Source of the DNA: an archaeon
Lineage (GTDB): Archaea > Methanobacteriota_B > Thermococci > Methanofastidiosales > NM3
Length of the DNA: 64,000 bases
Direction: 5' to 3'
Assembly: GCA_004212155.1 (NCBI GenBank)
Contig: RXIG01000001.1
Span: 124,001-188,000, forward strand
Shown: positions 20,559 through 35,331 of the stretch, piece by piece
Position numbering within the stretch: position 1 is the stretch's first letter
Layout: each line of letters opens with the position of its first letter
Program-made: the position numbers and the translations under genes
The notes under the pieces: model-generated
Database searches by the model: none
Told to the model about the DNA's origin: nothing
Seen by the model: the letters and a program-made list of their open reading frames with translations, nothing else

Positions 20559-21605
20559 ATGGAAGCGTTTCCCGAAGGCACGTATCACGGCCCCATACCT
20601 GAAGGGTGTACGCTGTGCGCCCTCGGGGCGAAGATGGTCCTCTTCGTAACAGGCGCCTGTCTCGGGACCTGTTATTACTGTCCTCTTTCCGAGAAGAGAA
20701 AGGGTGTTTGGGCGACGTGGGCCAATGAGCGCAAGGTGTCCTCTGCAGAGGAGGCAGTGGATGAGGCCCGTTTGATGGATGCTCTTGGCACCGGTATCAC
20801 CGGCGGCGACCCATTGCTCGTGCTTGACGATACCATCACCTATGCCAGGGCACTCAAGGATGCGTTCGACCATCACCACATCCATCTCTATACGCCCGGG
20901 ACGCTCGTTGATTCGATGGCCATGCAATATATCGAGCAGGTAATCGACGAGATACGATTCCATCCCCCTGGCTACGACGTAGAAAGGATCGAGCTCGCGC
21001 TGCGTCATGACATCTCCGTTGGCGCAGAGGTCCCTGCGATCCCAGGTTTGAAAGATGACCTTATCTCATTTGCCTGCAGGCTTGACGACATCGGTGCCCA
21101 TTTTCTCAACCTTAACGAGCTCGAGTACTCCGAGACGAACGCATCGGGGCTCAGGGCGAGGGGATTTTCCTTTTCGACCGATTCGAACGCTGTCGAGGGA
21201 AGCGAGGAGCTTGCCATTGACATCGTCGGGGCCACGGCGGACCTTGACATCCCCGTGCATTACTGTTCTTCCCGGTTCAAGGACAGCATCCAGTTCAGGG
21301 AGCGCCTGAAGCGCCGTGCGAAGAACGTGAGAAAGAAGTATGAGGACATCGATGACGACGGCCTCCTTGTGCGAGGCGAGATCGAGGCGCATACTGTCAA
21401 GCGGAGAGACGAGGTGCTAAGCGCCATATCCGAGCTCTTCGAACGAGACGACGACATGGTAGAGGCGCGCGGAACGGCCGTACGTACCAGCTGGGCAGCT
21501 GTCGAGGAGCTTCGCGAGATCCTTAACATCCCCGGTGTTCAGTTCTCGATAGTAAAGGAATACCCCACCTATGATAGGCAAGTCGTAGAAAAAGAGATAC
21601 TCTAG
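20559..21605 (+). CDS. Radical SAM protein, COG2108-like
   Basis: 348 aa. The cluster motif is CLGTCYYC (CxxxCxxC, near residue 35), preceded by a CTLC pair. GTGITGGDPLL matches the GGE-type SAM-binding motif and HLYTPG, IRFHPP continue the barrel. It belongs to a family found mainly in archaea and annotated only as pyruvate-formate-lyase-activating-like. The C-terminal third (KRRAKNVRKKYEDID, then a mixed domain) is outside the radical SAM core. Substrate unknown. It converges with the methyltransferase, overlapping 4 nt. Confidence 0.85.
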   Translation: MEAFPEGTYHGPIPEGCTLCALGAKMVLFVTGACLGTCYYCPLSEKRKGVWATWANERKVSSAEEAVDEARLMDALGTGITGGDPLLVLDDTITYARALKDAFDHHHIHLYTPGTLVDSMAMQYIEQVIDEIRFHPPGYDVERIELALRHDISVGAEVPAIPGLKDDLISFACRLDDIGAHFLNLNELEYSETNASGLRARGFSFSTDSNAVEGSEELAIDIVGATADLDIPVHYCSSRFKDSIQFRERLKRRAKNVRKKYEDIDDDGLLVRGEIEAHTVKRRDEVLSAISELFERDDDMVEARGTAVRTSWAAVEELREILNIPGVQFSIVKEYPTYDRQVVEKEIL

Positions 21606-22357
21606 GCCTTCTTGCCCATGTAGAGCATATACCCAAGCTTCTGTTCGCGAATGGCCTTCTCGCCCCTGCGCATGAGGTTTTCGAATCGTCCTGCATCGGC
21701 TGACGAGGCTTTAAGAAAGATGTTTGAGAAGAGGCGTATCTTCTTCCACTTCTGCAACAAGAGCTTCATGTTCTTCTCTGCGATCTGCTCCTTTTCCTCG
21801 GTGACGATGTTCGATAGGCCTGCCTGCTCCATGTAGTCCTTGAACGTTTCAACAGACAGGGAGGTGACCAGGCATGTAAGCTCCTTGAGCTCCTCTTGGT
21901 CCTCATCGCTCATCTCCGTTGTCGTGAAGTCGGCCATGGCAAACGTTCCCCCCTCCTTGAGGACTCGGCTACATTCGCTGATGGCCTTTGCCTTGTTGTC
22001 ATAGCATGACAGTGATCGTTCCAGGACGACGAGGTCAAACGTCCCATCCTCGAACGGGAGGTCTTCTGCAAAGCCCCTTACAAAGGAGACCTTCTTGGTA
22101 AGCTTTTCTCGGCGAGCGATCTTCTCGGCCTCCTTGATGTGCGCTTCGAAGATGTCGCTGCCCACGACGGTGCAACCGATCTCCTTTGCAAAATAGAATA
22201 CCGTCTCGCCACCCCTGCATGCCACTACCAGGATGTATGTGTTCTTGTCCACTGGAATTGTGTTGGTGAGTTCCTCGCGAATTTTCTGTGTTGTCGTGTA
22301 AAAGATGTCACCAAGGATCTTGTCGACAAAGCCCCTCTCGTATGCCTCTTCAACCAT
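21602..22357 (-). CDS. Class I SAM-dependent methyltransferase
   Basis: 251 aa. The Rossmann core is like UbiE-type methyltransferases: VVGSDIFEAHI (motif II), FVRGFAEDLPFEDGTFDLVVLERSL, and CSRVLKEGGTFAMADF. Motif I is unusual: YILVVACRGGETVFYF replaces the D-x-G-x-G-x-G signature. The last 60 residues are basic and helical. Possible substrates include small molecules or quinone- or arsenic-type acceptors; none is indicated. Confidence 0.8.
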   Translation of the reverse strand: MVEEAYERGFVDKILGDIFYTTTQKIREELTNTIPVDKNTYILVVACRGGETVFYFAKEIGCTVVGSDIFEAHIKEAEKIARREKLTKKVSFVRGFAEDLPFEDGTFDLVVLERSLSCYDNKAKAISECSRVLKEGGTFAMADFTTTEMSDEDQEELKELTCLVTSLSVETFKDYMEQAGLSNIVTEEKEQIAEKNMKLLLQKWKKIRLFSNIFLKASSADAGRFENLMRRGEKAIREQKLGYMLYMGKKA

Positions 22358-22477
22358 TGTACGTTAATAGGGGCGATAGATATATTAATTTTTTGTGGTA
22401 TCTAGAATATTATTCTATATTTTGTAATAAAATCACAAATGTACCTATATGTTATGCAATTATAAATTTTTATATAT

Positions 22478-22493
22478 TGGTACTATAGTACCA
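22478..22493. promoter_or_regulatory. 16-nt perfect palindrome next to a TATA-like element
   Basis: TGGTACTATAGTACCA is fully self-complementary and abuts TTTTTATATAT (22466-22477). A second inverted repeat ACACGT-TGTCT-ACGTGT follows at 22503-22519. No real gene starts within 90 nt downstream; the CPBP gene has its own TATA box at 22564-22573. This may be an operator for a short transcript, or an old promoter. Confidence 0.45.
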
Positions 22494-22593
22494 TGCAATG
22501 CGACACGTTGTCTACGTGTGCCACATAGCTGTCAAGAATGGTAGTTTTTCACCACTAAGCAATGTTTAAATAGTTTTCTATAGCAACGGGCAC

Positions 22594-23202
22594 ATGGGAA
22601 AACGAAGGCATCTGGCATGTTTGCTTGTCGTTTGCGTGACGCTCATACTCATCATGGTCGAGGATGCGTTGCCCGCATCGTCGTTTGATGGCTTTATATA
22701 CAAGGAGTTCGTACTCTATCTTGCAATACCCCTCGTGGCCGCATACGCTCTTCGCAGATCCGTGCGCCCATTTGGCTTTGCACTAGGCGACAGGAAGAAG
22801 GTGGCCCGGTATGCAGTGATGCTCTACGGGATTGGCATACCTTTCATGATCGTGGGGTCGCGCATGAGCGCATTTCGTGCGTATTATCCTCGTTTCTCAT
22901 TCGGCTCCTGGGAGGAGCTTGTATACTGGGAGCTCATGATAGGTGTTTTGATGCTCTCGACCGAGTTTTTCTTTCGTGGATTTCTCATGTTCGGGTGCAA
23001 GCGTGTCGGCAGGTGGGCCATACTGCTACAGGCCGTCCCCTATGCTTACATCCACCTGGGCAAGCCGATGCTCGAGGTCTACTACTCATTCTTCGCGGGC
23101 CTTGCGTTCGGATACATCGACTGGGAGTCCAAAAGCATCCTTCCTTCGTTTCTCGTTCACTGGTGCGCATCGGTGACCTTTGACATCCTCTGCATGGTGT
23201 GA
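22594..23202 (+). CDS. CPBP-family intramembrane metalloprotease
   Basis: 202 aa, about six transmembrane helices. Conserved motifs are STEFFFRGFLMFG (Glu and Arg of the ExxxR motif), AYIHLGK and VHWCAS with the later His. CPBP proteins cleave prenylated or other membrane substrates. The TATA box GTTTAAATAG (22564-22573) lies about 25 nt before ATG 22594, so the mRNA is probably leaderless. Confidence 0.85.
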   Translation: MGKRRHLACLLVVCVTLILIMVEDALPASSFDGFIYKEFVLYLAIPLVAAYALRRSVRPFGFALGDRKKVARYAVMLYGIGIPFMIVGSRMSAFRAYYPRFSFGSWEELVYWELMIGVLMLSTEFFFRGFLMFGCKRVGRWAILLQAVPYAYIHLGKPMLEVYYSFFAGLAFGYIDWESKSILPSFLVHWCASVTFDILCMV

Positions 23203-23233
23203 TAATCTTTATAAGCGAATCCTCAGAGAGTAT

Positions 23234-23791
23234 ATGACAACGATGAGGGCCCATTACAAGTATCCATTCTTGCTCGTGCTCGTCACGATCGTGGGCGTGG
23301 CGGTGTTTTCACTCTTCTACACGCCGGAACAGAGCCTCTCTATCGTGCTCCATGAGCGTGACACGAACATGACGGTCCATGTTCCCCTGTCGACCGTGCT
23401 CGAGCGATGCGAGGTAAAGGAACGGATCGTAAACGATGTGTGGCGAAACGAACTGATGACGTATGACTGCATCACGCTGCACGAGCTCCTTACGGATTCG
23501 GGGTATTTCTCCGAAGCACAGGAAGGCTTCGTATGCATGACAAACATACAGGGCACGATGGTATGCATACCAAGGGAGGACATCGCTGCCCATCCGCAAC
23601 AGTTCCTCTTCGCAGTGGGGCGATCGGGTGAGGACCTTGCCGTAAGCTTTTCCAACACACCCGAAGCAGGGGGCCCGATGCGCGTGCTTATCGAATATGA
23701 CGATACGCTTACTCAGGAGGAATACGGCCCATCGTACTGGATGTGGTGCGTCTACAAGATCAGTCTTGTACGAGAAGATCCTCGCTCGTGA
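23234..23791 (+). CDS. Secreted or membrane-anchored protein of unknown function
   Basis: 185 aa. One N-terminal helix (FLLVLVTIVGVAVFSLFY) anchors an extracytoplasmic domain that contains six Cys residues. VFLFAVGRSGEDL-like and VLIEYDD segments suggest a beta-rich fold, perhaps related to molybdopterin-oxidoreductase-like small domains (VHVPLSTVLE, TLHELLTDSG). I cannot name it. Its 3' end overlaps the convergent PRC-barrel gene by 32 nt. Confidence 0.65.
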   Translation: MTTMRAHYKYPFLLVLVTIVGVAVFSLFYTPEQSLSIVLHERDTNMTVHVPLSTVLERCEVKERIVNDVWRNELMTYDCITLHELLTDSGYFSEAQEGFVCMTNIQGTMVCIPREDIAAHPQQFLFAVGRSGEDLAVSFSNTPEAGGPMRVLIEYDDTLTQEEYGPSYWMWCVYKISLVREDPRS

Positions 23792-23984
23792 CGTTAAGGA
23801 TCACGCTATCACCGAGCTTGGACACCTTGTCCATGCTCACGAGGACCGATGTGCGAAATCCCTTGTGCACCTCGAGTGCCGTGATGGCATACGTAGTGGC
23901 GTCGAACTCCACATCGTGTACCTTGCCCATTTCCCGGGCATCAACATCATATACCCGTTTTCCCAAGAGCGACTTTACCATCAT
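23760..23984 (-). CDS. PRC-barrel domain protein
   Basis: 74 aa, a single PRC-barrel: LLGKRVYDVDAREMGKVHDVEFD and FRTSVLVSMDKVSKLGDSVIL. Archaeal one-domain PRC proteins occur near division or RNA-processing genes. Tandem ATGs at 23984 and 23981 have GGTG 6-9 nt upstream; longer frames from 24008 have no support. Confidence 0.85.
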   Translation of the reverse strand: MMVKSLLGKRVYDVDAREMGKVHDVEFDATTYAITALEVHKGFRTSVLVSMDKVSKLGDSVILNVTSEDLLVQD

Positions 23985-24098
23985 TGTGAACACCTTTTTT
24001 ATTATCATTACGGGCTGTTAATTATTTTTATTCTCTGCACTCTAAATTATATATTAGTGTCTATAAAAAACACTTCTATCCTTTAAAACCAAAAGATT

Positions 24099-24116
24099 TA
24101 TAAGTATATACTTATA
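24099..24116. promoter_or_regulatory. 18-nt perfect palindrome in the promoter of the DGC-protein gene
   Basis: TATAAGTATATACTTATA is fully self-complementary and sits 29-46 nt upstream of the start at 24145, over or beside the TATA position. This is where an ArsR-family repressor would block transcription; an arsR gene lies 0.9 kb downstream. Confidence 0.5.
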
Positions 24117-24144
24117 TCTATATATATTGAAGATAGGAAATGAT

Positions 24145-24819
24145 ATGATGAAGATTGGATTTTTACCCTGTCAGGGGACTTGTAATGTAGGAGTCATGAC
24201 CTCAAAAATAGCTATGGGATTTGCAGAAAAAGGGGTCGGCGACATGGTATGCCCGCTTGGTATACCTTTGGGTCTAGAAGGGATACTAAAGAAGGCAAAA
24301 ACAAATGATCGATTCATTGCATTGAACGGCTGCACCCTCAAATGTGCTTCAAAGACATTGGATTCGGCAGATCTACGAGAATATCAGGAAGTAGTGCTTA
24401 CTTCAGATTTCGGCATTGAAAAAAACAAGAACTACCATGAGGAGAATGGAATGGAACGGGTGGCAAAACACGTTTCCCAAATGCTTTCTGAAATGTTGGA
24501 AAAAGACGTGGAGTCCCCTATATTTCCTTCCGAACAAGAAAAACAAGAAAGAAGTGGTACCATGGACGAAGAACTGATGGAAAAGATAAAAACCCTAAGC
24601 AACGATGAGAAAGAGGAGGTCATTCGTATAATCCTTCCTGAAGCCTGTAAGGATATGCAACAGATGAAACGAATGATGATGCCTATTTGCATGGATATGA
24701 TGCAAAAAGGAAATACTACCATGGATGAGATGATGGGCATGATGATGAAGATGAGCAAAGAAATGCGCGAATCACAGAAAAAGCCCCCTCACAATGGATG
24801 CGGCTGCGGATGTTGCTAA
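24145..24819 (+). CDS. Putative zinc-binding protein with DGC domain (COG4273-like)
   Basis: 224 aa. Residues about 1-110 match the DGC-type zinc-binding family: LPCQGTCNVG, MVCPLGIPLGLEG and ALNGCTLKCASKTL with paired Cys. The rest is helical, very Met- and Lys-rich (for example KRMMMPICMDMMQKG), and ends GCGCGCC, a probable metal-binding tail. Tandem ATGs at 24145/24148 follow TAGGA. First gene of an AT-rich cluster with arsR, DUF169, ferredoxin and HdrA-like genes. Metal handling is inference from the ligands. Confidence 0.75.
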   Translation: MMKIGFLPCQGTCNVGVMTSKIAMGFAEKGVGDMVCPLGIPLGLEGILKKAKTNDRFIALNGCTLKCASKTLDSADLREYQEVVLTSDFGIEKNKNYHEENGMERVAKHVSQMLSEMLEKDVESPIFPSEQEKQERSGTMDEELMEKIKTLSNDEKEEVIRIILPEACKDMQQMKRMMMPICMDMMQKGNTTMDEMMGMMMKMSKEMRESQKKPPHNGCGCGCC

Positions 24820-25036
24820 ATAAGCTGTAAGATCGTGTACCAGAAACCACATTCATTTGGTGATCGTCGAGGCTTCAGTTGCCAGAGTATGTATTACACC
24901 CCCTGTGGCATAAAACCAATGTCATGAGCCCGGGGCTCTGGGAGATGACATTCAAGACCCAGTTGCTTTGGGGTTAGGTAGGGGAATGATTTCCAAGCTT
25001 CATTCGTATGAATGGCAATGAACACAAATCAAAAAC
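24820..25036. other. Intergenic region with a long imperfect hairpin
   Basis: AATGTCAT (24918-24925) pairs with ATGACATT (24945-24952), enclosing GAGCC (24926-24930) paired with GGCTC (24934-24938), giving a 13-bp stem with a 6-nt bulge. It could be a terminator for the DGC gene or a structured leader of arsR. No ORF. Confidence 0.4.
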
Positions 25037-25411
25037 ATGATGGACATGGATCATACAATTGATATCTTCAGAATGCTGTCAGATGAATCAAGATTACGGT
25101 TGCTTATACTGTTGTCTTACCAACCGTTATGCGTATGCCAGTTGTCCGAGATAATGGAAAAAACCCAACCTGCCATCTCCAGCCATCTGGCAAAACTACG
25201 TGCTAATGGCCTTGTTGCATACGACAAACATGGACAATGGGTATTCTATCATCTAAAATATGATAACGAAGTTCTAGATTTACTGTTAAAGTATCTGGTA
25301 CATAATCGTACGAGCTTTCCCACTCTAGAAAAGGATAGAGCGGCGTACGATTCCGTGGTAAGAGGGGACACCAAATGCCAACATGGCATAGGGGTGAAAA
25401 ATGATGAATGA
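25037..25411 (+). CDS. ArsR-family transcriptional regulator
   Basis: 124 aa. Winged helix: DIFRMLSDESRLRLLILL, LCVCQLSEIMEKTQPAISSHLAKLRANGL, WVFYHL. The CVC pair in the alpha-3 region (PLCVCQL) is the ELCVCDL-type metalloid-binding site of ArsR sensors. The extension after residue 85 is not part of the minimal family. It overlaps the DUF169 gene by 11 nt. It probably represses this cluster. Confidence 0.9.
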   Translation: MMDMDHTIDIFRMLSDESRLRLLILLSYQPLCVCQLSEIMEKTQPAISSHLAKLRANGLVAYDKHGQWVFYHLKYDNEVLDLLLKYLVHNRTSFPTLEKDRAAYDSVVRGDTKCQHGIGVKNDE

Positions 25412-26135
25412 ATATCAGGTGATGGAAACACGACTCGTTGAACTTCTTCATCTATCACGATGTCCTGTGGGCGTAAAGTTCCTAGATTCAAAAAATACAA
25501 ATAATTATAAAGATTTGCTTGAATCGAGCAAAAGAGTACGATATTGCCAAGCGTTGATGCTCGCAGGCAAGGGGGAAAGAATCGTTCTTTCCAAAGATAA
25601 AATAGCATGCCCTGCTGCCTCGGCAGCTTTTGGATTCGCACCTCTGACCGAGGCTTTAGAGAGTGGGAAGATGCTTCATACATTGGGTCTTTTCGAGAGC
25701 ATCGAATCTTCTAGAGAGCTCATGGCAAAAATGCCCAGACTTGTTGCCGGGGCTTATGATGCAGTGTTGCTCAGTCCTTTGGGATGTATGGTAGAAGACC
25801 CAGACATCGTGGTATTGGAATCCCAGCCAGAGCACCTGATGTGGGTTGCACTTGCTAGCATCTATACAACTGGCGAAAGGATGAAATTCAGTACTGGCGT
25901 ATTTCAGGCAACATGTGTGGATGCCACAGTAGTGCCTTTTCGTGATCACAAGCTCAATGCTAGTCTTGGATGTTATGGGTGCAGGGACTCGACAGACATA
26001 GGAAAAGATGAAGTGTTAGTAGGGTTTCCATACTGTTCTACAATACCCATCATACGTGCCTTAGAGCAATTGTCAACAAAACCAATGAAGCGCGTGAGGG
26101 AAAAAACAGCGCTAAAACACCTAAATAAATGTTGA
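25401..26135 (+). CDS. DUF169 family protein
   Basis: 244 aa. Family hallmarks are CPVGVKFL, RYCQALMLA, KIACPAASAAFGF, VLLSPLGCM-EDPD and the C-terminal NASLGCYGCRDSTDIGKDEVLVGFP. Several conserved Cys residues suggest metal or cofactor binding, but the function is not established. ATG 25401 or 25404, with GGGGTGA 3-8 nt upstream, overlaps arsR, so the two are coupled. Confidence 0.88.
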   Translation: MMNEYQVMETRLVELLHLSRCPVGVKFLDSKNTNNYKDLLESSKRVRYCQALMLAGKGERIVLSKDKIACPAASAAFGFAPLTEALESGKMLHTLGLFESIESSRELMAKMPRLVAGAYDAVLLSPLGCMVEDPDIVVLESQPEHLMWVALASIYTTGERMKFSTGVFQATCVDATVVPFRDHKLNASLGCYGCRDSTDIGKDEVLVGFPYCSTIPIIRALEQLSTKPMKRVREKTALKHLNKC

Positions 26136-26205
26136 TTATATACTAAAATCTATAATCGTAAGTATTATATGGATAAAGTCGATAATAAAACAGGGTGATG
26201 AAGCG

Positions 26206-26427
26206 ATGACCGATACTTGGTATCCTATAATTGATATGGTGCGATGCACCAAATGTCTGGAATGTGTGAACTTCTGTCCACATGATGTGTTTACTGTTGA
26301 GAATGATCGACCCATAGTGGAGCATCCGGAGAACTGTGTTGAGTTTTGCAGGGGCTGCCAAAGAGGCGCTTGCGAATATGAAGCTATTCTATTTCGTGGC
26401 GGGGATGTATGTATGGAGGAATTCTGA
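26206..26427 (+). CDS. Ferredoxin-like 4Fe-4S protein
   Basis: 73 aa. One classical motif CTKCLECVNFCPHD is followed by a variant cluster ENCVEFCRGCQRGACEYEA, with spacing different from a bacterial 2[4Fe-4S] ferredoxin. It would carry electrons in the cytoplasm. GGGTGATG lies 7 nt before ATG 26206. Its TGA overlaps the next ATG. Confidence 0.85.
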   Translation: MTDTWYPIIDMVRCTKCLECVNFCPHDVFTVENDRPIVEHPENCVEFCRGCQRGACEYEAILFRGGDVCMEEF

Positions 26428-26786
26428 TGGGGAAGAAAGGTCTAATCGTATGTGTATGCCAAGGCACATGCCCTTCATTCCAAAAGATGAATGTATTCAA
26501 TGTGCTCAATGCTATACGAAGGAAAAAACTAGTTGATTTCGTTTCACTCCATCCACAGCTATGTGCCAAGGATGGCGACGAATACCTTCGGACGCTACTA
26601 TCAAATACTGATATTGATAGATTGTATGTGGCAGCCTGTGAGTCTCATATGCAGGAGAAGATGTTTGAGCGAGCTTTCAACGATGCAGGCTTTGATCCTT
26701 CAAAACATTCGTCTGTCGATATACGCAACATGAACACCGAGGAAGCTGTGACCGCAATTACAAAGCTCATCGAGGAAAATCCCTAA
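26427..26786 (+). CDS. HdrA N-terminal-like protein
   Basis: 119 aa. The chain LIVCVCQGTCPSF, LHPQLCAKDGDEYL, LYVAACESHMQEKMFERAF and VDIRNM follows the N-terminal Fe-S domain of heterodisulfide reductase subunit A, but it has no FAD or ferredoxin domains. It may be a stand-alone electron-transfer domain working with the ferredoxin 0 nt upstream (ATGA overlap). GGAGGA gives a strong ribosome-binding site. Confidence 0.7.
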   Translation: MGKKGLIVCVCQGTCPSFQKMNVFNVLNAIRRKKLVDFVSLHPQLCAKDGDEYLRTLLSNTDIDRLYVAACESHMQEKMFERAFNDAGFDPSKHSSVDIRNMNTEEAVTAITKLIEENP

Positions 26787-27015
26787 TTCGTATGTCCTCG
26801 GCATCCGCGCTTCGGCCGAAGAGAATGTGAATTCAAAAACACATGCACCATATCTTTTCAACGTCGTATCCCATGTAGCGGGATATTTTTCATTTTTTTT
26901 CTGCATATTTTATGTAGAAAAAAATAGGCTAGTAATTATTAATATTATAATATTATAGTAGTATCAACTTCGTGGATGTCACAATCTTTATATTAACGTA
27001 TTCTACCACTCTCAC
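26787..27015. promoter_or_regulatory. AT-rich intergenic region and nep1 promoter
   Basis: Contains the palindrome CTTCGGCCGAAG (26810-26821) just after the HdrA-like gene, several T runs, and CTTTATATTAA (26986-26996), a TATA box 25 nt before nep1. No gene seen. Confidence 0.45.
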
Positions 27016-27636
27016 ATGCTTAAGATCATCATAGCCGAAGCAGAGCTTGAACCAATGCCCCGCTCGCTTCGCAGCCTTCCAGTCATGAAGAAGAAATATG
27101 GACGAAAGGATGTGGTCCTGCTTGATAGCAACTACCATCATACCTCGATGCAGACACTCCCCGATGCATATCGAAGAGGGAGGCCGGACATCGTGCACGT
27201 CTGCCTGCTCAATGCCCTTGAGTCTCCGCTCAACAAGGACGGAGGGCTGGAGGTATACGTCCATACCCGCAATGACAAGGTCATATACATCGACCCGTCG
27301 TGGAAGGTCCCCAAATCATACAATAGATTCGTGGGATTGATGGAACAGCTCTTTTCAACCCGCCGCATCACAGCAGGTGATACCGAACTGCTCCGTATGG
27401 TGAACAAGACGTTGCCAGACCTCATCACCGAGGTATCCAGCGGCATGCCTGTCAAGGTGATGCACTACGAGGGCGCCCCGTATGAGCCGGACCCTGACGA
27501 GGTCCTCGTCATCGGAGGATTCCCTCATGGCGATTTTGTCAGCGACCTCCCCTTTTCGCGTTTTTCGATCCATGGCGAAGAGCTTGTGGCATGGGCAGTG
27601 CTCAACCATGTCGTATACGGCGCGCACGGTACATAG
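27016..27636 (+). CDS. nep1: rRNA pseudouridine N1-methyltransferase Nep1
   Basis: 206 aa SPOUT enzyme that methylates a pseudouridine in 16S rRNA and helps 30S assembly. Seen: LLDSNYHHTSM, RRGRPDIVHVCLLNALESPLN, LEVYVHTRNDKVIYIDP and the SAM-knot region VIGGFPHGDF. The TATA box sits 25 nt upstream, so it is probably leaderless. Confidence 0.96.
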   Translation: MLKIIIAEAELEPMPRSLRSLPVMKKKYGRKDVVLLDSNYHHTSMQTLPDAYRRGRPDIVHVCLLNALESPLNKDGGLEVYVHTRNDKVIYIDPSWKVPKSYNRFVGLMEQLFSTRRITAGDTELLRMVNKTLPDLITEVSSGMPVKVMHYEGAPYEPDPDEVLVIGGFPHGDFVSDLPFSRFSIHGEELVAWAVLNHVVYGAHGT

Positions 27637-27668
27637 GTTTAAATATTTCTCACATACTCTCATACGAT

Positions 27669-28304
27669 ATGAAGTGGAAGCGCCGAAGGCGCCAAAGACA
27701 AAAGATCGCTTCCAGGCACATATCCCGCCTCTTCGACCTTGCAATGGCATACGTGCATGAGAACCCGGCACGCGCCCGCCGCTATATCGAGATGGCGCGT
27801 TCCATCTCCCGCAAGCACAAGGTATCGTTTTCCAAGGAACAGAAACGGTCATATTGCGCGGCATGCAATCTCCCTCTCGTTACCGGTTCCACGGCACGGG
27901 TCAGGATCGGGCATGGCAGGGTGAGCATCACGTGCCTTTCGTGCGGACACGTTAAACGGTATCCCTACCGCAAGGAACGGCGCCTGGCGCGCACGCGCCG
28001 CCGTGGTTATGCAGAAACCAAGGTCAAGGGAGGGCTCGTCTGCGTTGATGTCACACTCGAGGGCCGTGCCATCAAAGACATACAGATAAGCGGTGATTTT
28101 TTCTTCTATCCGGAGGAGAAGCTCTCCTTGCTCGAAGATCGCATGCGCCATGTCCAGACGTTCAAGGTACGAGATGCCGTGCACGCATTCTTCGAGCAGG
28201 AGGGCGTGAAGGCGCCGGGCATGACGCCTGACGAACTTGCCGGCGCCATCATGCGCGCCTCAGGCAGGGCAATGCCCCTTAAAAGTTGGCCTTCACCGTC
28301 TTGA
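27669..28304 (+). CDS. rnp4: RNase P subunit Rnp4 fused to a lipoate-ligase C-terminal-type domain
   Basis: 211 aa in one frame. Residues about 1-110 are Rnp4/Rpp21: a basic helix RRRQRQKIASRHI, helical hairpin, and a zinc ribbon with CAAC and CLSC. Residues about 118-205 read as the Lip_prot_lig_C domain: KGGLVCVDVTLEGRAIKDI, ISGDFFFYPEE, and MTPDELAGAIM. In lipoate ligases this domain is needed to activate lipoate. No catalytic LplA domain is present. The fusion is unexpected. TATA box TTTAAATATTT (27638-27648) is about 25 nt upstream, which supports this start over longer frames. The 3' end overlaps mcm by 26 nt. Confidence 0.85.
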   Translation: MKWKRRRRQRQKIASRHISRLFDLAMAYVHENPARARRYIEMARSISRKHKVSFSKEQKRSYCAACNLPLVTGSTARVRIGHGRVSITCLSCGHVKRYPYRKERRLARTRRRGYAETKVKGGLVCVDVTLEGRAIKDIQISGDFFFYPEEKLSLLEDRMRHVQTFKVRDAVHAFFEQEGVKAPGMTPDELAGAIMRASGRAMPLKSWPSPS

Positions 28305-30327
28305 GGACACCAGCACGCGGTTCGAAGATGTCCCCGCCCCGCTTTAGTTCCTCGATGGCACGGACGATGAACTCCTTTCCGATGCCTGCCTCCTTTGCCG
28401 CCTTGACCACTTCCTCATACGGTGCTCCCTCGTCATAGTCCTGTTCGATCTTTTCGATAAGCTCATAGACCTGTATAATCTTTTGGCGCTGCGAGGTGGC
28501 CTTTCCAGTCATAAGGATATCAACGTCCATAGAGCCCGTTTCCTTGTCCATCATGATCTTTTCTATGACGCTTCGGTATAAGCTGATCGTGGCGTCAGCA
28601 TCTTCGGGCGTGACAACATTGGAGAGCCGCATGCGCGCTCTGGCCTCCGAAAGGCGGATCAATGCCTCGAGCTGTCGCGCCGTGATGGGGACCGCGCCAC
28701 CCTCTGCCCCCTGTTTGCGTATCGAGACGTAGAACTTGTGCAGTTTTTCCACTGTCTCCTTCATGAGCTCGGGATACACATTCCTCTTGGCATACGATAT
28801 GTACTTGACAAGGAACTCCGGCTCGAGGATGGGAGATATGTTTTCCTCGACACCGCTGTGGCTGTCGAGGATGTGTCGCGCGATGCGCGAGTCCTCCGCA
28901 TCGTTTGGCACGTCCTTGAGCACGAAGATGAGGTCGAATCGCGAGAGCAGAGAATGGGGAAGGTCGATCTGTTCGAGTTCGTTCTTATAGTTGTCGAATC
29001 TTCCAAGCTTCGGATTCGCAGCGGCAAGGATCGACGCCCTTGCATTAAGCGTCGCCACGATGCCCGCCTTGGCGATGCTGATCGTTTGCTGCTCCATCGC
29101 CTCGTGCACCGACGAACGGTCATCGGTGGTCATCTTGTCGATCTCATCGATACAGGCTATGCCCCCGTCGGCGAGCACGAGGGCACCTGCCTCTAGCGCC
29201 CAGCCGCCCGTTGTTTCATCCTTGACGACAGCCGCGGTAAGGCCGGCGCTTGACGTGCCCTTTCCTGAGGTGTAGACGCTACGCGGGGCGAGACGGGCGA
29301 CATATTGGAGGATCTGTGACTTGGCAACACCAGGATCACCGACGAGCAGCATATTGGAATCACCTCGCAATCTCGTGCCGTCGGGGAGCTCGCGCATCAC
29401 ACCTGCAAAGAGTTGGAGTGCTATTGCCTCCTTGACGTCGCTGAGGCCGTAGATAGAGGGGGATATGGACCCAACGACCTTCTGAACGATGTTCTCGTCC
29501 TGGGACAGCTCCCATATCCGCGCCTCGTCCTCATCGGTGATGAGCGTGTCGTCGACGTCCTTTTCGAGCACCTCGATGCAGTTCACCTCGATGTATTTGG
29601 AAAACGTTGTCTTCTTGACCTTGAACTGACTGTCCTGAACGGTCTTGAGGATGCCCGTGACGGTCACGCGTGAGCCTGCCTGGGCCATATCTACGATATC
29701 GTCGCGCAGCAGGCAGTTGATGTGCTGGGGCATGCGCCCTCCCTTGAGGGTCTCGGGACGCTCCTGCACCTTGATCAGCTGCCAGTCGATGAATCGCGAC
29801 TGATCTTCCAAAAGCTTGAAGGGACCTGACTTGCCGCATGCCGGATTGGGACATGCAGGGGGTTTCTTGAAGTTCGTCGAGTCCTGGCGTATGAAGATGA
29901 TCTCACCGCACCGTTCACATTCAAAGACCGCCTCTATGATCTCGGGCTTCACCTCGGAGGCCCGTCCTACGATGGCGATGATCTGTATGAGCTTGTGCAT
30001 ATCCTCCGTTCGTATCTGCCTGATCCCCTTATCGCGCGTGGCATCAAGATTGTGAAACCGTACATGAAGCGACTGGTCGGGAAACTCTGGCAAGGCCTCC
30101 TGGAGAACCTGTTCCGCGATGGGGATGACCTCAAGCGGCTTGTCGACCAGTTCGGTATAGATGTCCTGGTCATACGTTATGAGGTCGTCACAGTCGACGA
30201 CGAGGCTATGCGTGTCGTTCGCCCTCATATCCTCTATCTTCTTCTTGTACTTGGGAAACGATACGTCGGGATAAGTTTCGAAAAAATCCCTGAATCCGCT
30301 GATGATGGAATCGAAATCTACTGCCAT
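28279..30327 (-). CDS. mcm: Replicative helicase MCM
   Basis: 682 aa. The N-terminal DNA-binding part has a zinc finger (CERCG and CPNPACG near residues 135-165). The AAA+ core has Walker A GDPGVAKSQIL, Walker B CIDEIDKM, sensor 1 AAANP and arginine finger SRFDLIF. A C-terminal winged helix ends the chain. It unwinds DNA as a hexamer with GINS and Cdc45/RecJ. It overlaps the GINS gene by 10 nt. Confidence 0.98.
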   Translation of the reverse strand: MAVDFDSIISGFRDFFETYPDVSFPKYKKKIEDMRANDTHSLVVDCDDLITYDQDIYTELVDKPLEVIPIAEQVLQEALPEFPDQSLHVRFHNLDATRDKGIRQIRTEDMHKLIQIIAIVGRASEVKPEIIEAVFECERCGEIIFIRQDSTNFKKPPACPNPACGKSGPFKLLEDQSRFIDWQLIKVQERPETLKGGRMPQHINCLLRDDIVDMAQAGSRVTVTGILKTVQDSQFKVKKTTFSKYIEVNCIEVLEKDVDDTLITDEDEARIWELSQDENIVQKVVGSISPSIYGLSDVKEAIALQLFAGVMRELPDGTRLRGDSNMLLVGDPGVAKSQILQYVARLAPRSVYTSGKGTSSAGLTAAVVKDETTGGWALEAGALVLADGGIACIDEIDKMTTDDRSSVHEAMEQQTISIAKAGIVATLNARASILAAANPKLGRFDNYKNELEQIDLPHSLLSRFDLIFVLKDVPNDAEDSRIARHILDSHSGVEENISPILEPEFLVKYISYAKRNVYPELMKETVEKLHKFYVSIRKQGAEGGAVPITARQLEALIRLSEARARMRLSNVVTPEDADATISLYRSVIEKIMMDKETGSMDVDILMTGKATSQRQKIIQVYELIEKIEQDYDEGAPYEEVVKAAKEAGIGKEFIVRAIEELKRGGDIFEPRAGVLKTVKANF

Positions 30328-30770
30328 GCGTCTCCCTCGAACAATGAGCGCCCTATGTCTTCAACGAGCGATGAGAGCTTGACATAGAACTCAGCTTCCT
30401 TCGGTTGCATATACGCCTTGATGCTTTTAGGTTGATTGAGGTGTTTATGTATCTTTTCCAAGCGCACGTAAAGTAATTCCATGGTGGCCTGGCGCAGGCG
30501 TCCCTGCTCCTTTTCCTCCTTTTCTGTGGCGATCGAATGGGCAACGAGTTCATAGATGTTTGTTGGCAGTTCCTGCAGACCGGGTTGAGAACGTTCAGTC
30601 ATCACATATTTTCGCATCGCGGCGCTTGAAACACGGGGGATCTCGACCACTTCGTTGCGCTCGAGCACGTAGGCGATGTGCGGTGGCAATTCCTTCGTTT
30701 CGCCCTTCTTTATCACGACAGTGAGCAAGTCGGATTCGTACTGATATGTCTGCAGCCCCTTCACTTTCAT
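30318..30770 (-). CDS. GINS complex subunit, Gins23 type
   Basis: 150 aa. A small beta-rich B domain (about residues 1-48, ELPPHIAYVLERNEVVEI) precedes the helical A domain (about 65-145). The B-then-A order fits Gins23 rather than Gins15/51. Coupled to mcm, as in many archaea. ATG 30770. Confidence 0.8.
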   Translation of the reverse strand: MKVKGLQTYQYESDLLTVVIKKGETKELPPHIAYVLERNEVVEIPRVSSAAMRKYVMTERSQPGLQELPTNIYELVAHSIATEKEEKEQGRLRQATMELLYVRLEKIHKHLNQPKSIKAYMQPKEAEFYVKLSSLVEDIGRSLFEGDAWQ

Positions 30771-30894
30771 GTGCGGTACCCCGGGTTCATGCGTATGCTT
30801 GATGCATTAAAAAAATCTTCTCACATACCGACTGGTCCAGGTGTTCATAAAGATTGCTTCGACCCCTTCATGTCCACTGGAACTTTCTACTCAT

Positions 30895-30914
30895 TTTTGT
30901 TAAATTACCCAAAA
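30895..30914. promoter_or_regulatory. 20-bp dyad shared with the second ECF S-component gene
   Basis: TTTTG-TTA-AATT-ACC-CAAAA, 31 nt upstream of ATG 30945. The same arms, core and right spacer occur at 53853-53872, 32 nt upstream of the other S-component gene. Probably an operator or activator site; the regulator is unknown. Confidence 0.55.
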
Positions 30915-30944
30915 GCTTTTAACATCCGTGGGCATGGAGATACC

Positions 30945-31712
30945 ATGAAGCGCAACTCTCAAGAGATTGCCGTGATCGGACTCTTTATAGCACTTATCGC
31001 CGTTTTGCAGGTGTCCCCCCTCTACGTGCCTACGGCATGGGGAATGCGCATCGATATCGTCGCCGTGCCGGTGCTTGTGGCATTCTTCCTGTATGGCCTG
31101 CGCACAGCTCTTGCGGTCTCTGCCGGCATGTTCGTAGTGCTCTCCATCGTTGCTGCCGAATCGGTTATCGGCGCTTCGATGAAGTGGATAGCGACAGTAC
31201 CCATGGTAATCACTCCTGCAATCCTCAGATTGCAGGTAAGCAAGGAAAGCCTTCGAAACGACATAGGCACCATCGTAGGGGCCGTGATTAGCATCGTTGC
31301 ACTCATTGCACTCGTTGGCATCATGTACGAGATGGCGGGCTCCGAATCCCGGGAGCTGTATTCACCCTTCATCGTGCTCATCGCTTCCGCCGCGTTCTAT
31401 GGTGCTTTCTACATCGTCAGTCAGCGTCATGAACCACAAAGCCTCGGCATTTACAAGGAACCAAAGATGATTGCCACTGTGCTCATCCTCGCTGTCCTCG
31501 TACGGGGGATAACGACCACCGTTATCAACTATTACTTCACGCTACCCGTATTCTTCGACATACCCACGGCGGCGGCGCTCGAATGGGTACCGTGGTATGT
31601 GATGTTTGGCCTCAATGCCATACAGGGTGCGCTTGAGGTCACCGTTGCATGGCTGCTCGTGTTCAAGACGAAGGCATTTTCGTACGTGCAAAAAGCTTAT
31701 ATACAATCGTAA
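30945..31712 (+). CDS. ECF-transporter S-component-like membrane protein
   Basis: 255 aa with seven or so hydrophobic segments. The start EIAVIGLFIALIAVLQV, then GMRIDIVAVPVLVAFFLYGLR, resembles vitamin-specific S components of energy-coupling factor transporters (RibU-like), though this protein is longer than most. No EcfA or EcfT genes are in the window. ATG 30945 has GGAG upstream. The substrate is unassigned. Confidence 0.6.
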   Translation: MKRNSQEIAVIGLFIALIAVLQVSPLYVPTAWGMRIDIVAVPVLVAFFLYGLRTALAVSAGMFVVLSIVAAESVIGASMKWIATVPMVITPAILRLQVSKESLRNDIGTIVGAVISIVALIALVGIMYEMAGSESRELYSPFIVLIASAAFYGAFYIVSQRHEPQSLGIYKEPKMIATVLILAVLVRGITTTVINYYFTLPVFFDIPTAAALEWVPWYVMFGLNAIQGALEVTVAWLLVFKTKAFSYVQKAYIQS

Positions 31713-31724
31713 GCAGTGGGGCGT

Positions 31725-32306
31725 ATGGTACAGGCCGCGGTGCTCCTAAAGCTCGTGGACGCGAAATCACGCCTCGCTCCTTTTCTTTCCCTTGCTCAGC
31801 GCCAGACCATGGTATTGTACATGCTCTCGCATGTGCTCAACGTTCTTGAGGACGTGCCCACAATGATCCTTACACGATCGTTTTGCGCATTGGGTACGCG
31901 TAGCGACGAGGAAAACATCAACGAATGTATCGACATGGTGCGACGGTCGATCGATGACGACCTGGTCGTTGTCACGAGCGATCTGCCTTTTTTTAACAAA
32001 GAAGCGCTTCAGGCGCTTACAAGCGAACCTGAAACGCTGGCGATAGGACCCTCCCACAACGGTGGCACGAGTGGTCTTTTCATCCCTCGTTCGATCGATT
32101 TCTCGCCGCGTTTTGGAAGGGGGAGCCTCGAGCGGCATCGACAGCAGTCTGTGGAGAAAGGGCATACCATGCGTTTGGTCGATATGCCCGCATTCAGGGA
32201 TGTCGATACATGGGAGGATGTGGAATGGATATTTGAAAACGCACCTTCATCGGCCATAGGACGATTTTTGTCCGGATTGGCCAAGCGCCCTATAACTGCC
32301 TTTTGA
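31725..32306 (+). CDS. cofC: 2-phospho-L-lactate guanylyltransferase
   Basis: 193 aa. It activates phospholactate or a related acid with GTP for coenzyme F420 synthesis. Motifs: VLLKLVDAKSRLAPFLS, LVVVTSDLPFF, IGPSHNGGTSGLFI, FGRGSLERH and FRDVDTWEDV. ATG 31725 is chosen over GTG 31716. A TATA-like CTTATATACAA (about 31697-31707) precedes it. Indicates F420-dependent redox chemistry in this organism. Confidence 0.88.
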   Translation: MVQAAVLLKLVDAKSRLAPFLSLAQRQTMVLYMLSHVLNVLEDVPTMILTRSFCALGTRSDEENINECIDMVRRSIDDDLVVVTSDLPFFNKEALQALTSEPETLAIGPSHNGGTSGLFIPRSIDFSPRFGRGSLERHRQQSVEKGHTMRLVDMPAFRDVDTWEDVEWIFENAPSSAIGRFLSGLAKRPITAF

Positions 32307-32934
32307 CAGACATTATCTCGAGGATGCTTGCGCTGTCCTCCATTCGGTCAGAGATGCTGGCGACATTGAGCACGAAGTCGCGCAGCCATAGTTTTTCTGC
32401 AAGGTGCAGGTCACTGTTTTCAAAGATCGTCTTCCTGAGCTTGTACTCGATCTTGTCAACGACATGCTCCTTTCGCTCCACTTCCTGCGTTTCCTTGATC
32501 GTCATCTCCCTGTCGGTTCGGAAATAGACGATCGCCTTCTTGAGATTCTCGAAGGGGGATATGGTGTTCTCGACAAGCTCGGTGAATCCTGATGACATCG
32601 ACGAAGGTATGTGGGGATGCTCGAGCACGAGCGTGTTGATGTTGAACTTGGCCTTGTCGGCTATGTCGTCATACGTATAGCTGAACGTATAGATGTCATC
32701 CCTGTAGAGGGGCATGAAAGCACCCTCGTAGAGCTTCATCTGCACGGCCCGCTTCTTCTCGTCGGCGATGTGCTCATCATGCATGATCTCATCGCGTATG
32801 GACTCGCACTGGCATATGTCGTCGCTTAGGTACGAATCCATGCCCCTCTTGAAACCTCGGAGACACTTTTCGATGTGGACCGTATGTTCATCGATGATCG
32901 AGGAGACTTCCTTCTCCTTCTTTCCAAAAATCAT
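32290..32934 (-). CDS. DUF47/PhoU-like protein
   Basis: 214 aa, all helical: MIFGKKEKEVSSII at the start, then E-x3-D-type metal motifs (ECS/ESIRDEIMHDEHIADE, RKEHVVDKIEYKL, LRDFVLNVASISDRMEDSA). These proteins often regulate adjacent phosphate transporters; none is here. ATG 32934 is chosen since the TATA box ATATATA (32958-32964) lies 27 nt upstream, giving a leaderless mRNA. It converges with cofC, overlapping 17 nt. Confidence 0.85.
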   Translation of the reverse strand: MIFGKKEKEVSSIIDEHTVHIEKCLRGFKRGMDSYLSDDICQCESIRDEIMHDEHIADEKKRAVQMKLYEGAFMPLYRDDIYTFSYTYDDIADKAKFNINTLVLEHPHIPSSMSSGFTELVENTISPFENLKKAIVYFRTDREMTIKETQEVERKEHVVDKIEYKLRKTIFENSDLHLAEKLWLRDFVLNVASISDRMEDSASILEIMSVKRQL

Positions 32935-33066: not shown

Positions 33067-33360
33067 ATGGACAAGGAACGGGAAGTAGCAAGCATCTTCA
33101 AAGCCCTTTCAGACGAGAATCGGGTGAAGATTGTGGAATTCCTGCGAGAAGGGGAGCGGTGTGTTTGCGAGATCGTGCCCTTCATCGGCACTTCCCAATC
33201 CAATGTTTCTCAACATCTTCGCGTGCTGCGTGAGGCGGGCGTCATCGATTACCGCCGCGACGGAAAGAAGATCATGTACTTCGTTGTTTTCAAAGATGTC
33301 TTTGATATCCTCGACACTGTCTATGCAACGACCACGCAGATGATGAACGCTTCCGAATGA
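33067..33360 (+). CDS. ArsR-family transcriptional regulator
   Basis: 97 aa. SIFKALSDENRVKIVEFL, ERCVCEIVPFIGTSQSNVSQHLRVLREAGVI and KIMYFVV make the winged helix; the CVC pair at the start of the recognition region is the metalloid-sensing ELCVC-type site. TATA-like CTTTTTATC about 27 nt upstream suggests a leaderless mRNA. First gene of the permease-thioredoxin locus. Confidence 0.92.
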   Translation: MDKEREVASIFKALSDENRVKIVEFLREGERCVCEIVPFIGTSQSNVSQHLRVLREAGVIDYRRDGKKIMYFVVFKDVFDILDTVYATTTQMMNASE

Positions 33361-33404
33361 GCTAACTCTCTTGTGCATACCCTCCATACCAAAAGTTTTT
33401 TAAG

Positions 33405-33440
33405 CTAAATATAATCATATTAGTAATTACTTATATTTAG
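33405..33440. promoter_or_regulatory. Inverted repeat in the permease promoter
   Basis: CTAAATATAA (33405-33414) and TTATATTTAG (33431-33440) are perfect 10-bp complements, with GTAATTAC at 33423-33430 between them. It covers the likely TATA box and ends 10 nt before the permease ATG, a likely ArsR operator. Confidence 0.5.
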
Positions 33441-33450
33441 AGGGTTCAAC

Positions 33451-34494
33451 ATGGGGTACATAGAGCGTGCATTGGAATCTGGCATATCCGAACTCATCGA
33501 ATATCTCTCGGCACATACGCTGACATGCCTCGTGCCAGCGTTTTTCATCGCAGGCGCCATAGCGGTGTTCATATCAAAACAGGCCGTCGTCAAGTACTTT
33601 GGGTGCAATACGAAACGCTACATCTCCTATGGTGTGGCATCGATCTCCGGCGTAATCCTGGCTGCCTGTTCCTGCACCGTGATTCCTCTCTTTGCGGGTA
33701 TATGGAGGCGCGGTGCTGGCATTGGCCCGGCCAGTACGTTCCTCTATGCGGGTCCGGCCATAAACATACTTGCCATTTCCCTCACGGCCAAGGTGCTTGG
33801 ATTCGAGATAGGCCTTGCACGCGCCGTGGCAGCGATCATCATGGGCATCATGATAGGCCTCATCATGGAGTTTATCTTCGAGAGGCATAAGGGGGAACCC
33901 GAACAAACCCCCTCGGTAGCATGCGACATAGCCGAGGGCATCACTGGTAAGCGTTCAGTATACCTCTTCATAGTTCTCGTGCTCATACTCCTTGTCGGCA
34001 CTGCTGCTATTGGGACCTATGTCAAGGTGGCCGCAGTTCTGGCATTGGTGGCCGTCGTAGGCTGGATGACATATGCATGGCTGTCTCGTGAGGAGGCACG
34101 ATCGTGGGGCGAGGAGACATTCTCGCTTTTCAGGATGATATTCCCATTGCTTTTGATCGGCGTGTTCGCCGCCGGTCTGATAAAAGAGTTCCTCCCCCCT
34201 GCGTACGTAGCACAATATGTGGGATCGAACTCGATAGTGGCCAATCTCATCGCGTCCGTGGCCGGCGCGTTCATGTACTTTGCGACCCTTACCGAGGTGC
34301 CCATCATCGAGTCGCTGACAAGCCTTGGCATGCACAAGGGCCCTGAACTTGCCCTGTTGCTTGCAGGTCCGGCGTTGTCGTTGCCGAACATGCTCGCCAT
34401 CCGTCAGGTCATGGGCACGAAAAAGACAGTCACGTATATCGTCCTCGTCATCGTGTTCGCCACCATGTCGGGCATCATCTACGGGATGCTGTAG
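33451..34494 (+). CDS. DUF318/ArsP-type permease
   Basis: 347 aa, eight or more transmembrane helices in two related halves. ILAACSCTVIPLFAGIWRRGAGIGPAS carries the conserved Cys pair of the family; FLYAGPAINILAIS and AGPALSLPNMLAI are the paired half-repeats. ArsP members export organoarsenicals; other members are untested. GAGGG precedes the ATG. Context with ArsR and thiol-redox proteins supports metal or metalloid export, as inference. Confidence 0.88.
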   Translation: MGYIERALESGISELIEYLSAHTLTCLVPAFFIAGAIAVFISKQAVVKYFGCNTKRYISYGVASISGVILAACSCTVIPLFAGIWRRGAGIGPASTFLYAGPAINILAISLTAKVLGFEIGLARAVAAIIMGIMIGLIMEFIFERHKGEPEQTPSVACDIAEGITGKRSVYLFIVLVLILLVGTAAIGTYVKVAAVLALVAVVGWMTYAWLSREEARSWGEETFSLFRMIFPLLLIGVFAAGLIKEFLPPAYVAQYVGSNSIVANLIASVAGAFMYFATLTEVPIIESLTSLGMHKGPELALLLAGPALSLPNMLAIRQVMGTKKTVTYIVLVIVFATMSGIIYGML

Positions 34495-34500
34495 AGAAAC

Positions 34501-34540
34501 ATATAAGTACATTATCTTATACGTATATATTAATACTTGA
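34501..34540. promoter_or_regulatory. Palindromic promoter region of the mini-thioredoxin genes
   Basis: AAGTA (34505-34509) and TACTT (34534-34538) flank the palindrome TATACGTATA (34518-34527), nearly co-centred. The half-sites resemble those at 24099-24116. The GGAGG at 34546-34550 serves the first gene. Confidence 0.4.
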
Positions 34541-34558
34541 AAACTGGAGGAAGATCAG

Positions 34559-34819
34559 ATGGTCAAGATGGAGTTTTTCACTGCAGAACCACCTTGCGCG
34601 GGGTGCGTGGCCCTGCTCGAGCTCGCGGACAGGGTGGCAGAAGAGTACCCCGAAGTGGAGGTCGTCAAGAATGTGGGTATGTGCGACGAGTTCAGAAAAT
34701 ATGAGATCACCTACGTACCGGCATTGATCATAGAGGGCGGAAAGATCGCCTTCATGGGACTTTGCCCTAGCTACGACACGCTCGTCGCTGCACTGGCGGA
34801 GATGGGGGTGAAGCGATGA
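34559..34819 (+). CDS. Mini-thioredoxin 1
   Basis: 86 aa glutaredoxin-size thioredoxin fold. MEFFTAEPPCAGCVALLEL places CxxC near residue 13; the cis-Pro loop is YVPALII. First of three tandem paralogues, overlapping the next gene by 4 nt. Probably reduces disulfides or arsenic species for the adjacent permease system. Confidence 0.85.
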   Translation: MVKMEFFTAEPPCAGCVALLELADRVAEEYPEVEVVKNVGMCDEFRKYEITYVPALIIEGGKIAFMGLCPSYDTLVAALAEMGVKR

Positions 34820-35070
34820 TCAAGGTGGAGGTGTTCGCGTCGGAACCACCCTGTTCGGGAGGGAGATTGCTTCTCAAACTCATAGACAGGGTTCGGTCGG
34901 ACTTTGAGGACAAGGCCGAGTTCATCGTCCACAAGGGCGTCAACGATGCGACCGAAGCATACGGTCTTGCGACGACGCCGGCCATCATCATCGATGGCGA
35001 CATTCGGATCATTGGTGTTTGCCCAAGCGAGGAAACGTTACGAAATGCCTTTTTCGAGGCAGGATTGTGA
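34816..35070 (+). CDS. Mini-thioredoxin 2, resolving Cys missing
   Basis: 84 aa paralogue of its neighbours: VEVFASEPPCSGGRLLLKLID and cis-Pro TTPAIIID. The motif is CSGG instead of CxxC, so it keeps only the attacking Cys. It may bind a ligand, form mixed disulfides, or act as a monothiol partner. ATGA overlap upstream. Confidence 0.82.
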   Translation: MIKVEVFASEPPCSGGRLLLKLIDRVRSDFEDKAEFIVHKGVNDATEAYGLATTPAIIIDGDIRIIGVCPSEETLRNAFFEAGL

Positions 35071-35074
35071 TAAC

Positions 35075-35323
35075 ATGGTAGAGGAAATTATGGTATTTGG
35101 ACCAGAACCAGCATGTGTGAAATGCAAGAAAACGACCGAGGTCGCACAACAGGTGGCAGGTATGCTCGGCATCAACATGGCCAAGTATGACGTGCTATCA
35201 GAGGAAGCGGACAAGTATGGCATCATGCTCTCACCGGCCGTTGTATTCAAGGGGGAGGTGTTGGTATCCGGAAAGGTGCCCACCTTCGACTCCCTGAAGG
35301 AAATGGTCGAAAAGCGGATGTGA
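35075..35323 (+). CDS. Mini-thioredoxin 3
   Basis: 82 aa. IMVFGPEPACVKCKKTTEVAQ carries CVKC and MLSPAVVFKG the cis-Pro. It resembles the thioredoxin_3 type redox-active disulfide proteins of methanogens. Separated by 4 nt from gene 2. Confidence 0.87.
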   Translation: MVEEIMVFGPEPACVKCKKTTEVAQQVAGMLGINMAKYDVLSEEADKYGIMLSPAVVFKGEVLVSGKVPTFDSLKEMVEKRM

Positions 35324-35331
35324 ATGCCATC

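Follow-up and report, generated by a model that had tools for sequence, protein, structure and literature searches.

A probable arsenite-responsive accessory cassette acquired horizontally by a methanogenic archaeon

What might be the purpose of five consecutive genes, mostly rich in cysteine codons and all poor in GC, in a genome of quite different composition? The question is raised by contig RXIG01000001.1 of the archaeal assembly GCA_004212155.1 (Methanofastidiosales, NM3), of which positions 124,001 to 188,000 were analysed as a window of 64,000 nucleotides. Pfam and NCBIfam matches place all five genes on the forward strand at 24145-26786 of this window, encoding a DGC-domain protein, an ArsR-type repressor, a DUF169 protein, a ferredoxin and a protein resembling the N-terminus of heterodisulfide reductase subunit A (HdrA-N). 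A preliminary description suggested that they could form a metal-responsive reductase or assembly system. The analysis presented here indicates that this island is probably an accessory cassette for detoxification that responds to arsenite and was acquired horizontally; that it belongs to arsenic or metalloid defence in some capacity seems very likely. Arsenic is preferred to a generic redox role because the repressor has a CVC sensing site and because homologues of these genes are repeatedly linked to ACR3, ArsA, ArsD, ArsC, ArsM and ArsP.

The acquisition is evident from a sibling in the same genus (G017, contig L212). Blastn matches of 94-95% DNA identity cover window positions 22424-23994 and 27014-32917, and in the sibling only 45 bp separate them, at the junction of the PRC-barrel and EMG1 genes; hence positions 23995-27013 constitute a clean insertion of 3,019 bp replacing this spacer, and the true unit extends slightly beyond the 24145-26786 first delimited. 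The same two genes adjoin one another, again without the island, in G018, G016 and G015, so that the site is empty in all four genus and family relatives checked. Among relatives of the host's phylum, represented by one class of 115 genomes, no DUF169 match at E ≤ 1e-10 was detected in the genus, family or order, and two remote members of the class contain distant paralogues. The empty site in so similar a sibling, together with the absence of this DUF169 from near relatives, shows that the island was transferred horizontally, recently and precisely, as the preliminary description had thought possible. No recombinase, terminal repeats or transfer RNA target that would mark a mobile element was found at the insertion ends, and a tblastn search of plasmids returned one distant DUF169 and neither DGC nor HdrA-N.

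The impression that these genes are AT-richer than their surroundings is confirmed by their composition. The island has a GC content of 43.0%, compared with a mean of 53.6% (standard deviation 3.7) for window blocks of the same size, and GC content at third codon positions is 0.40-0.45 in its five genes and 0.64-0.71 in all the neighbouring genes tested, the transition at either edge being abrupt. Codon choice also departs strongly from that of native genes (Lys AAA, 0.64 versus 0.15; Ile ATT, 0.29 versus 0.07). All five frames are intact. Instead of three genes linked by overlaps, as originally described, there are two overlapping pairs, ArsR with DUF169 (8-11 bp) and ferredoxin with HdrA-N (1-19 bp), separated by 70 bp; 217 bp lie between the DGC and ArsR genes. 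The products are indeed Cys-rich in the case of DGC (11 Cys), DUF169 (9), ferredoxin (9) and HdrA-N (5), but not in that of ArsR, which has three, two of them in its CVC motif.

The regulator (25037-25411, forward strand; HTH_5, 58 bits; NCBIfam HTH_metalloreg, 84 bits) contains CVCQ at residues 32-35. In this family, a CVC site with no N-terminal Cys is of the arsenite type, whereas additional N-terminal Cys ligands characterise the CadC type, which responds to cadmium and lead. As C32 and C34 of the island protein are preceded by no other Cys, its site is read as the As(III) type found in ars operons. The metal response envisaged in the preliminary description can, in combination with the linkage data below, be narrowed to a predicted response to arsenic. 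A perfect 18 bp palindrome (TATAAGTATATACTTATA; 24099-24116, no strand) overlaps a TATA-like box upstream of the DGC gene and is a candidate ArsR operator; dinucleotide shuffling of the 136 bp upstream region gave a palindrome of this length in 12 of 2000 cases.

The DUF169 protein (25401-26135, forward strand; 244 aa) matches PF02596 over its full length (positions 1-200 of 209), scoring 182 bits against a cut-off of 27. Phylogenetically it falls within a supported clade of eight members (100/95), alongside five Clostridia and two methanogens of another phylum, all with the order ArsR-DUF169; its closest relatives are clostridial (51-54% identity), and a supported branch has all 28 control DUF169 sequences on the same side. 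Five cysteines (C49, C70, C172, C191 and C194) are invariant across the 51 sequences of alignment A3, the last of them in a GC[YF]GCR motif in which most other DUF169 clades have Ser (GCNGSR or similar). The AlphaFold model is confident (predicted local distance difference test score, pLDDT, 94; predicted template modelling score 0.91). As neither Foldseek, at E ≤ 1e-3, nor sequence comparison found a match in the PDB, the protein seems to have a fold for which no solved relative is recognised.

Searching genome contigs with the single window protein gave no DUF169 matches, while an alignment of closer relatives succeeded; alignment A2, comprising ten DUF169 relatives, retrieved the 80 nearest DUF169 loci from GTDB genomes. 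A strong match to ACR3 (at least 100 bits), ArsA (at least 200), ArsD (at least 50), ArsC (at least 40), ArsP (at least 50) or ArsM (at least 120) was present within 6.5 kb at 45 of the 80, and at none of 26 loci from other DUF169 clades (Fisher p = 3e-8). The seeds were confirmed by Pfam and NCBIfam on representatives (ACR3, 393 bits; ArsA, 837; ArsD, 148; an ArsR-ArsM fusion, 316). Lower-scoring ArsM (27-53 bits) and ArsA (22-30 bits) matches at control loci were judged to be general methyltransferases and Mrp-type ATPases, and were not counted. Since the control loci (11-18 kb of DNA each) are archaeal and the test loci taxonomically mixed, the decay of gene density with distance inside the test set is the better control. 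Between 0-2 kb and 8-10 kb from DUF169, the density per 100 kb drops from 11.3 to 1.2 for ArsR, 6.8 to 1.2 for DGC, 6.8 to 1.8 for ArsP and 6.5 to 1.2 for thioredoxin, with ArsC likewise falling several-fold.

Individual loci illustrate the pattern. DGC-ArsR-DUF169 recurs in four clostridial loci (L110, L111, L112 and L115), and in Caloramator (L112) it is part of the array ArsR-ACR3-ArsD-ArsA-DGC-ArsR-DUF169-CMD-MetRich, where ACR3 and ArsA exceed their equivalog cut-offs. In methanogens of another phylum, ArsR-DUF169-small protein-ArsD-ArsA is found with ArsC and DGC nearby (G319), and ACR3, DGC, ArsR-DUF169 and an ArsR-ArsM fusion lie within about 13 kb (G182); loci that exemplify the linkage are L112, L097, L065, L259, L261 and L263. 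A ferredoxin gene adjoins DUF169 in many loci. Two of the closest relatives have broken frames, for DGC in Fusibacter (L111, 9463-9636) and for DUF169 in Caloramator (L112, 6537-7277), through either decay or sequencing error. Two archaeal families share a DUF169-ferredoxin-Hsp20-like trio (L066, 9156-10472; L067, 5886-7217), near which no ars genes were found.

No association between DUF169 and arsenic was found among 5.39 million open-access papers, of which 16 contain the name DUF169, several apparently only as part of longer names; subscription papers lay outside that search, so earlier notice is possible. A review of ars genes (PMC6205960) does not name DUFs or ferredoxin as components, and the one phenotype found for DUF169 is a nitrate fitness entry in Desulfovibrio G20, for a gene listed beside a TauE-like gene (PMC4001038).

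The first gene of the island (24145-24819, forward strand; 224 aa) encodes a DGC domain (PF08859; 80 bits, cut-off 27) in which C9, C36, C63 and C67 are invariant, fused to a Met/Cys-rich region of residues ~139-224 that ends GCGCGCC. This tail matches separate small Met-rich proteins encoded 3' of DUF169 in the clostridial loci L112 and L111, and one copy in L110 (30-36 bits, E 3e-7 to 5e-9). The occurrence of the two parts in one frame here and as separate genes in Clostridia suggests that DGC and the Met-rich protein work together. The modelled DGC domain is alpha/beta (pLDDT above 90), with no PDB match at E ≤ 1e-3 in a fold search. Homology between DGC and HdrA-N, which have a look-alike CxGxC layout, was considered and rejected, profile comparison giving a probability of 5% (E 0.007).

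The last two genes encode a small ferredoxin with two Cys clusters (26206-26427, forward strand; Pfam Fer4; 73 aa) and the HdrA-N protein (26427-26786, forward strand; CxCxxxC...C...C), whose open reading frame opens at 26409 (125 aa) and whose conserved start is at 26427. The similarity to HdrA noted in the preliminary description is upheld, but the protein is not a broken copy. It aligns only to positions 3-97 of the 777 in HdrA2 (NCBIfam, 33 bits), resembles the N-terminal domain of HdrA chains in the PDB (9sfi and 7bkb, E 4e-4 to 1e-3), lacks the flavin adenine dinucleotide (FAD)/thioredoxin-reductase and ferredoxin domains of HdrA, and belongs to a conserved stand-alone family of 120-125 aa with a ferredoxin gene adjoining in every locus inspected. 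The host's full-length HdrA is encoded elsewhere in the genome; pyrrolysine in that protein was rejected, as the in-frame TAG is merely a stop preceding the start codon.

Because the HdrA-N tree is poorly resolved, nearest relatives were judged by identity. In the host's class, 11 genomes encode such relatives as stand-alone proteins (59-64% identity), often in the order DGC-HdrA-N-ferredoxin. The closest relatives of the ferredoxin are paired with HdrA-N in Thermococcaceae-like genomes, where the HdrA-N-ferredoxin pair also lies near ArsC/ACR3. Three of five long HdrA-N loci in the host's class have ACR3 (338-350 bits) and ArsC within about 8 kb (L265, L267 and L269), with ArsC alone in L266. 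HdrA-N is present in 12 of 50 genomes with ars-type DUF169, ferredoxin being adjacent in all 12 regions, and the pair is beside or near ACR3, ArsM, ArsC, ArsP or DUF169 in L255 and L258-L263. Examples are ArsC-ArsR-DUF169-ArsM-HdrA-N-ferredoxin-DGC-like in Solibacteraceae (L259), ArsC-ArsM-ArsR-ACR3-USP-HdrA-N-ferredoxin (L261) and ArsC-ACR3-HdrA-N-ferredoxin (L263). Clostridial loci L252-L258 have a recurrent arrangement of an Lpd-like flavoprotein, HdrA-N, ferredoxin and several DGC-like proteins in tandem (DGC-like-DGC-like-DGC-like), which in Fusibacter (L253) stands behind an ArsR; the names Lpd-, USP- and lipoate ligase-like, and those of DGC-like neighbours not matched by the DGC seed, were assigned by reading the sequences. 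These clusters are often accompanied by genes resembling those for lipoate ligase, aminotransferase/cysteine desulfurase and DUF3343. The cassette is composed of two modules that recur in the arsenic islands of anaerobes: DGC-ArsR-DUF169, of clostridial type, and ferredoxin-HdrA-N, of a type also found in the host's class. The strong co-occurrence of these families elsewhere, along with the atypical composition, is the opposite of what would have spoken against the preliminary description.

The host is a methanogen, as the McrA gene in its genome (1.49 Mb, about 90% complete) shows. A separate cluster (33067-37600, forward strand) consists of an ArsR with a CVC site, an ArsP-like permease about 7 kb from the island (ArsP_1, 269 bits), three thioredoxin-like proteins, two small proteins and a CcdA/DsbD-like protein; it is of ordinary composition and outside the insertion, and is possibly a partner providing an exit route. 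A methyltransferase at 21602-22357 with distant likeness to ArsM was rejected as part of the island, having native composition, a position outside the insertion and conservation in both relatives with contigs extending that far. This DVU_1556/ArsM-like gene is convergent with one for a radical S-adenosylmethionine protein (together 20559-22357), an arrangement conserved in G018 and G016. Also nearby, an archaeomyxosortase MrtA-like protease gene (22594-23202; 177.8 bits, cut-off 200) overlaps that of an uncharacterised protein (23180-23791), both being conserved in the sibling and in family relatives.

As regards mechanism, ArsR would repress the cassette until As(III) binds the CVC site and then release it. 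The Cys-rich DUF169 protein and the DGC/Met-rich fusion would bind the arsenical; ferredoxin and HdrA-N would supply low-potential electrons; an arsenical in oxidised, thiolated or methylated form, or its thiol adduct, would be reduced to an exportable form; and the product might leave through the ArsP-like protein or another permease. Such ferredoxin-fed reductive handling is favoured here over plain sequestration, even if the reductive step as proposed is put forward tentatively, and for the chemistry sequestration is nearly as likely. In that alternative, itself rather doubtful, DUF169 and the DGC fusion trap As(III) in the manner of ArsD and hand it to an exporter, with ferredoxin and HdrA-N only repairing or reducing arsenic-damaged thiols or Fe-S clusters. 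The GCGCGCC-terminated tail, the five invariant DUF169 cysteines, the direct adjacency of DUF169 to ArsD, ArsA and ACR3 genes in L112 and L117, and the Met-rich proteins within the same clostridial operons as DUF169 all suit a trap of this kind, which nevertheless leaves unexplained why ferredoxin is a constant partner of HdrA-N and a frequent one of DUF169, and why the clostridial flavoprotein-HdrA-N-ferredoxin-DGC order exists.

Several observations weigh against an arsenite-responsive accessory cassette. The five genes include none for a pump exporting arsenite, for an arsenate reductase or for ArsM, and ACR3 was not found in the host genome, at about 90% completeness; 35 of the 80 DUF169 loci, some on short contigs, have no strong ars gene nearby; the exact five-gene order was not encountered in other genomes; and the CVC site of ArsR proteins is also able to accommodate Sb(III) and, given additional ligands, Cd or Pb. 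It is conceivable, if unlikely, that the cassette is directed at a different thiophilic element (antimony, mercury, copper or selenium) and keeps ars company because metal genes cluster in islands. The window's ArsP-type permease shows a further, sub-threshold resemblance to models of SaoE and of Cu/Zn transporters, DUF169 is among the co-occurring genes listed in a selenium gene survey (PMC5322559), and the DUF3343-like genes of clostridial HdrA-N loci, as read from sequence, point in the same direction. Opposed to this are the repeated direct linkage to ACR3 and ArsA, over equivalog cut-offs, and to ArsD and ArsM, over family cut-offs, and an ArsR whose site is of the As(III) type and which lacks the N-terminal Cys that CadC has. 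A chance patchwork, in which an inert or decaying foreign fragment holds parts without shared function, would accommodate the shortness of HdrA-N and the differing affinities of the two modules (clostridial and Thermococcaceae-type), but is very improbable given five intact frames, retained overlaps and modules each conserved and ars-linked elsewhere.

Beyond the accessory cassette, it is a speculative and rather unlikely proposition that anaerobes possess a hitherto undescribed arsenical reductase system, dependent on ferredoxin and made up of DUF169 from this clade and its ferredoxin together with HdrA-N and DGC. Fusibacter 3D3, which is reported to show arsenate-dependent growth without ArrAB and for which ferredoxin-derived electrons have been supposed (PMC9751042), carries both modules in its genome (L111 and L253); this is a lead rather than evidence, and such a reductase, if real, could help to explain that growth. 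Apart from documenting a recent, precise cassette transfer into a methanogen, these results connect arsenic islands from numerous phyla of Bacteria and Archaea with one DUF169 clade, with one class of DGC proteins and with the pairing of ferredoxin and a stand-alone HdrA-N. DUF169 and DGC are both conserved and widely distributed, yet neither family has an assigned role. The results suggest that arsenic handling in anaerobes draws on low-potential electrons, and make functions testable as As(III) binding, induction and ferredoxin-dependent turnover.

Comparison with known systems places each component beside a familiar family and somewhat apart from it. HdrA-N has a weak but real likeness to the N-terminal domain of heterodisulfide reductase subunit A, yet stands alone, its partner ferredoxin being encoded by its own gene. 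The DGC protein shares the four cysteines and GC motif of PF08859, but its Met/Cys-rich tail is in none of the other 12 homologues aligned. Four Cys are common to the island DUF169 and the other clades inspected of PF02596 (COG2043), from which it is separated by its membership of an ars-linked clade with GCYGCR, its sub-clade being marked by the ArsR-DUF169 order. The repressor has the HTH_5 domain and the CVC of the alpha-3 site in common with ArsR-type members of the ArsR/SmtB family; its best PDB match is SmtB, and its metal specificity is putative. Canonical ars operons (arsR-D-A-acr3/arsB-C, arsM) differ in having the pump, reductase and methyltransferase that the cassette lacks, but they resemble it in the CVC site of ArsR, and the neighbours of its relatives are their own components ACR3, ArsA, ArsD, ArsC and ArsM.

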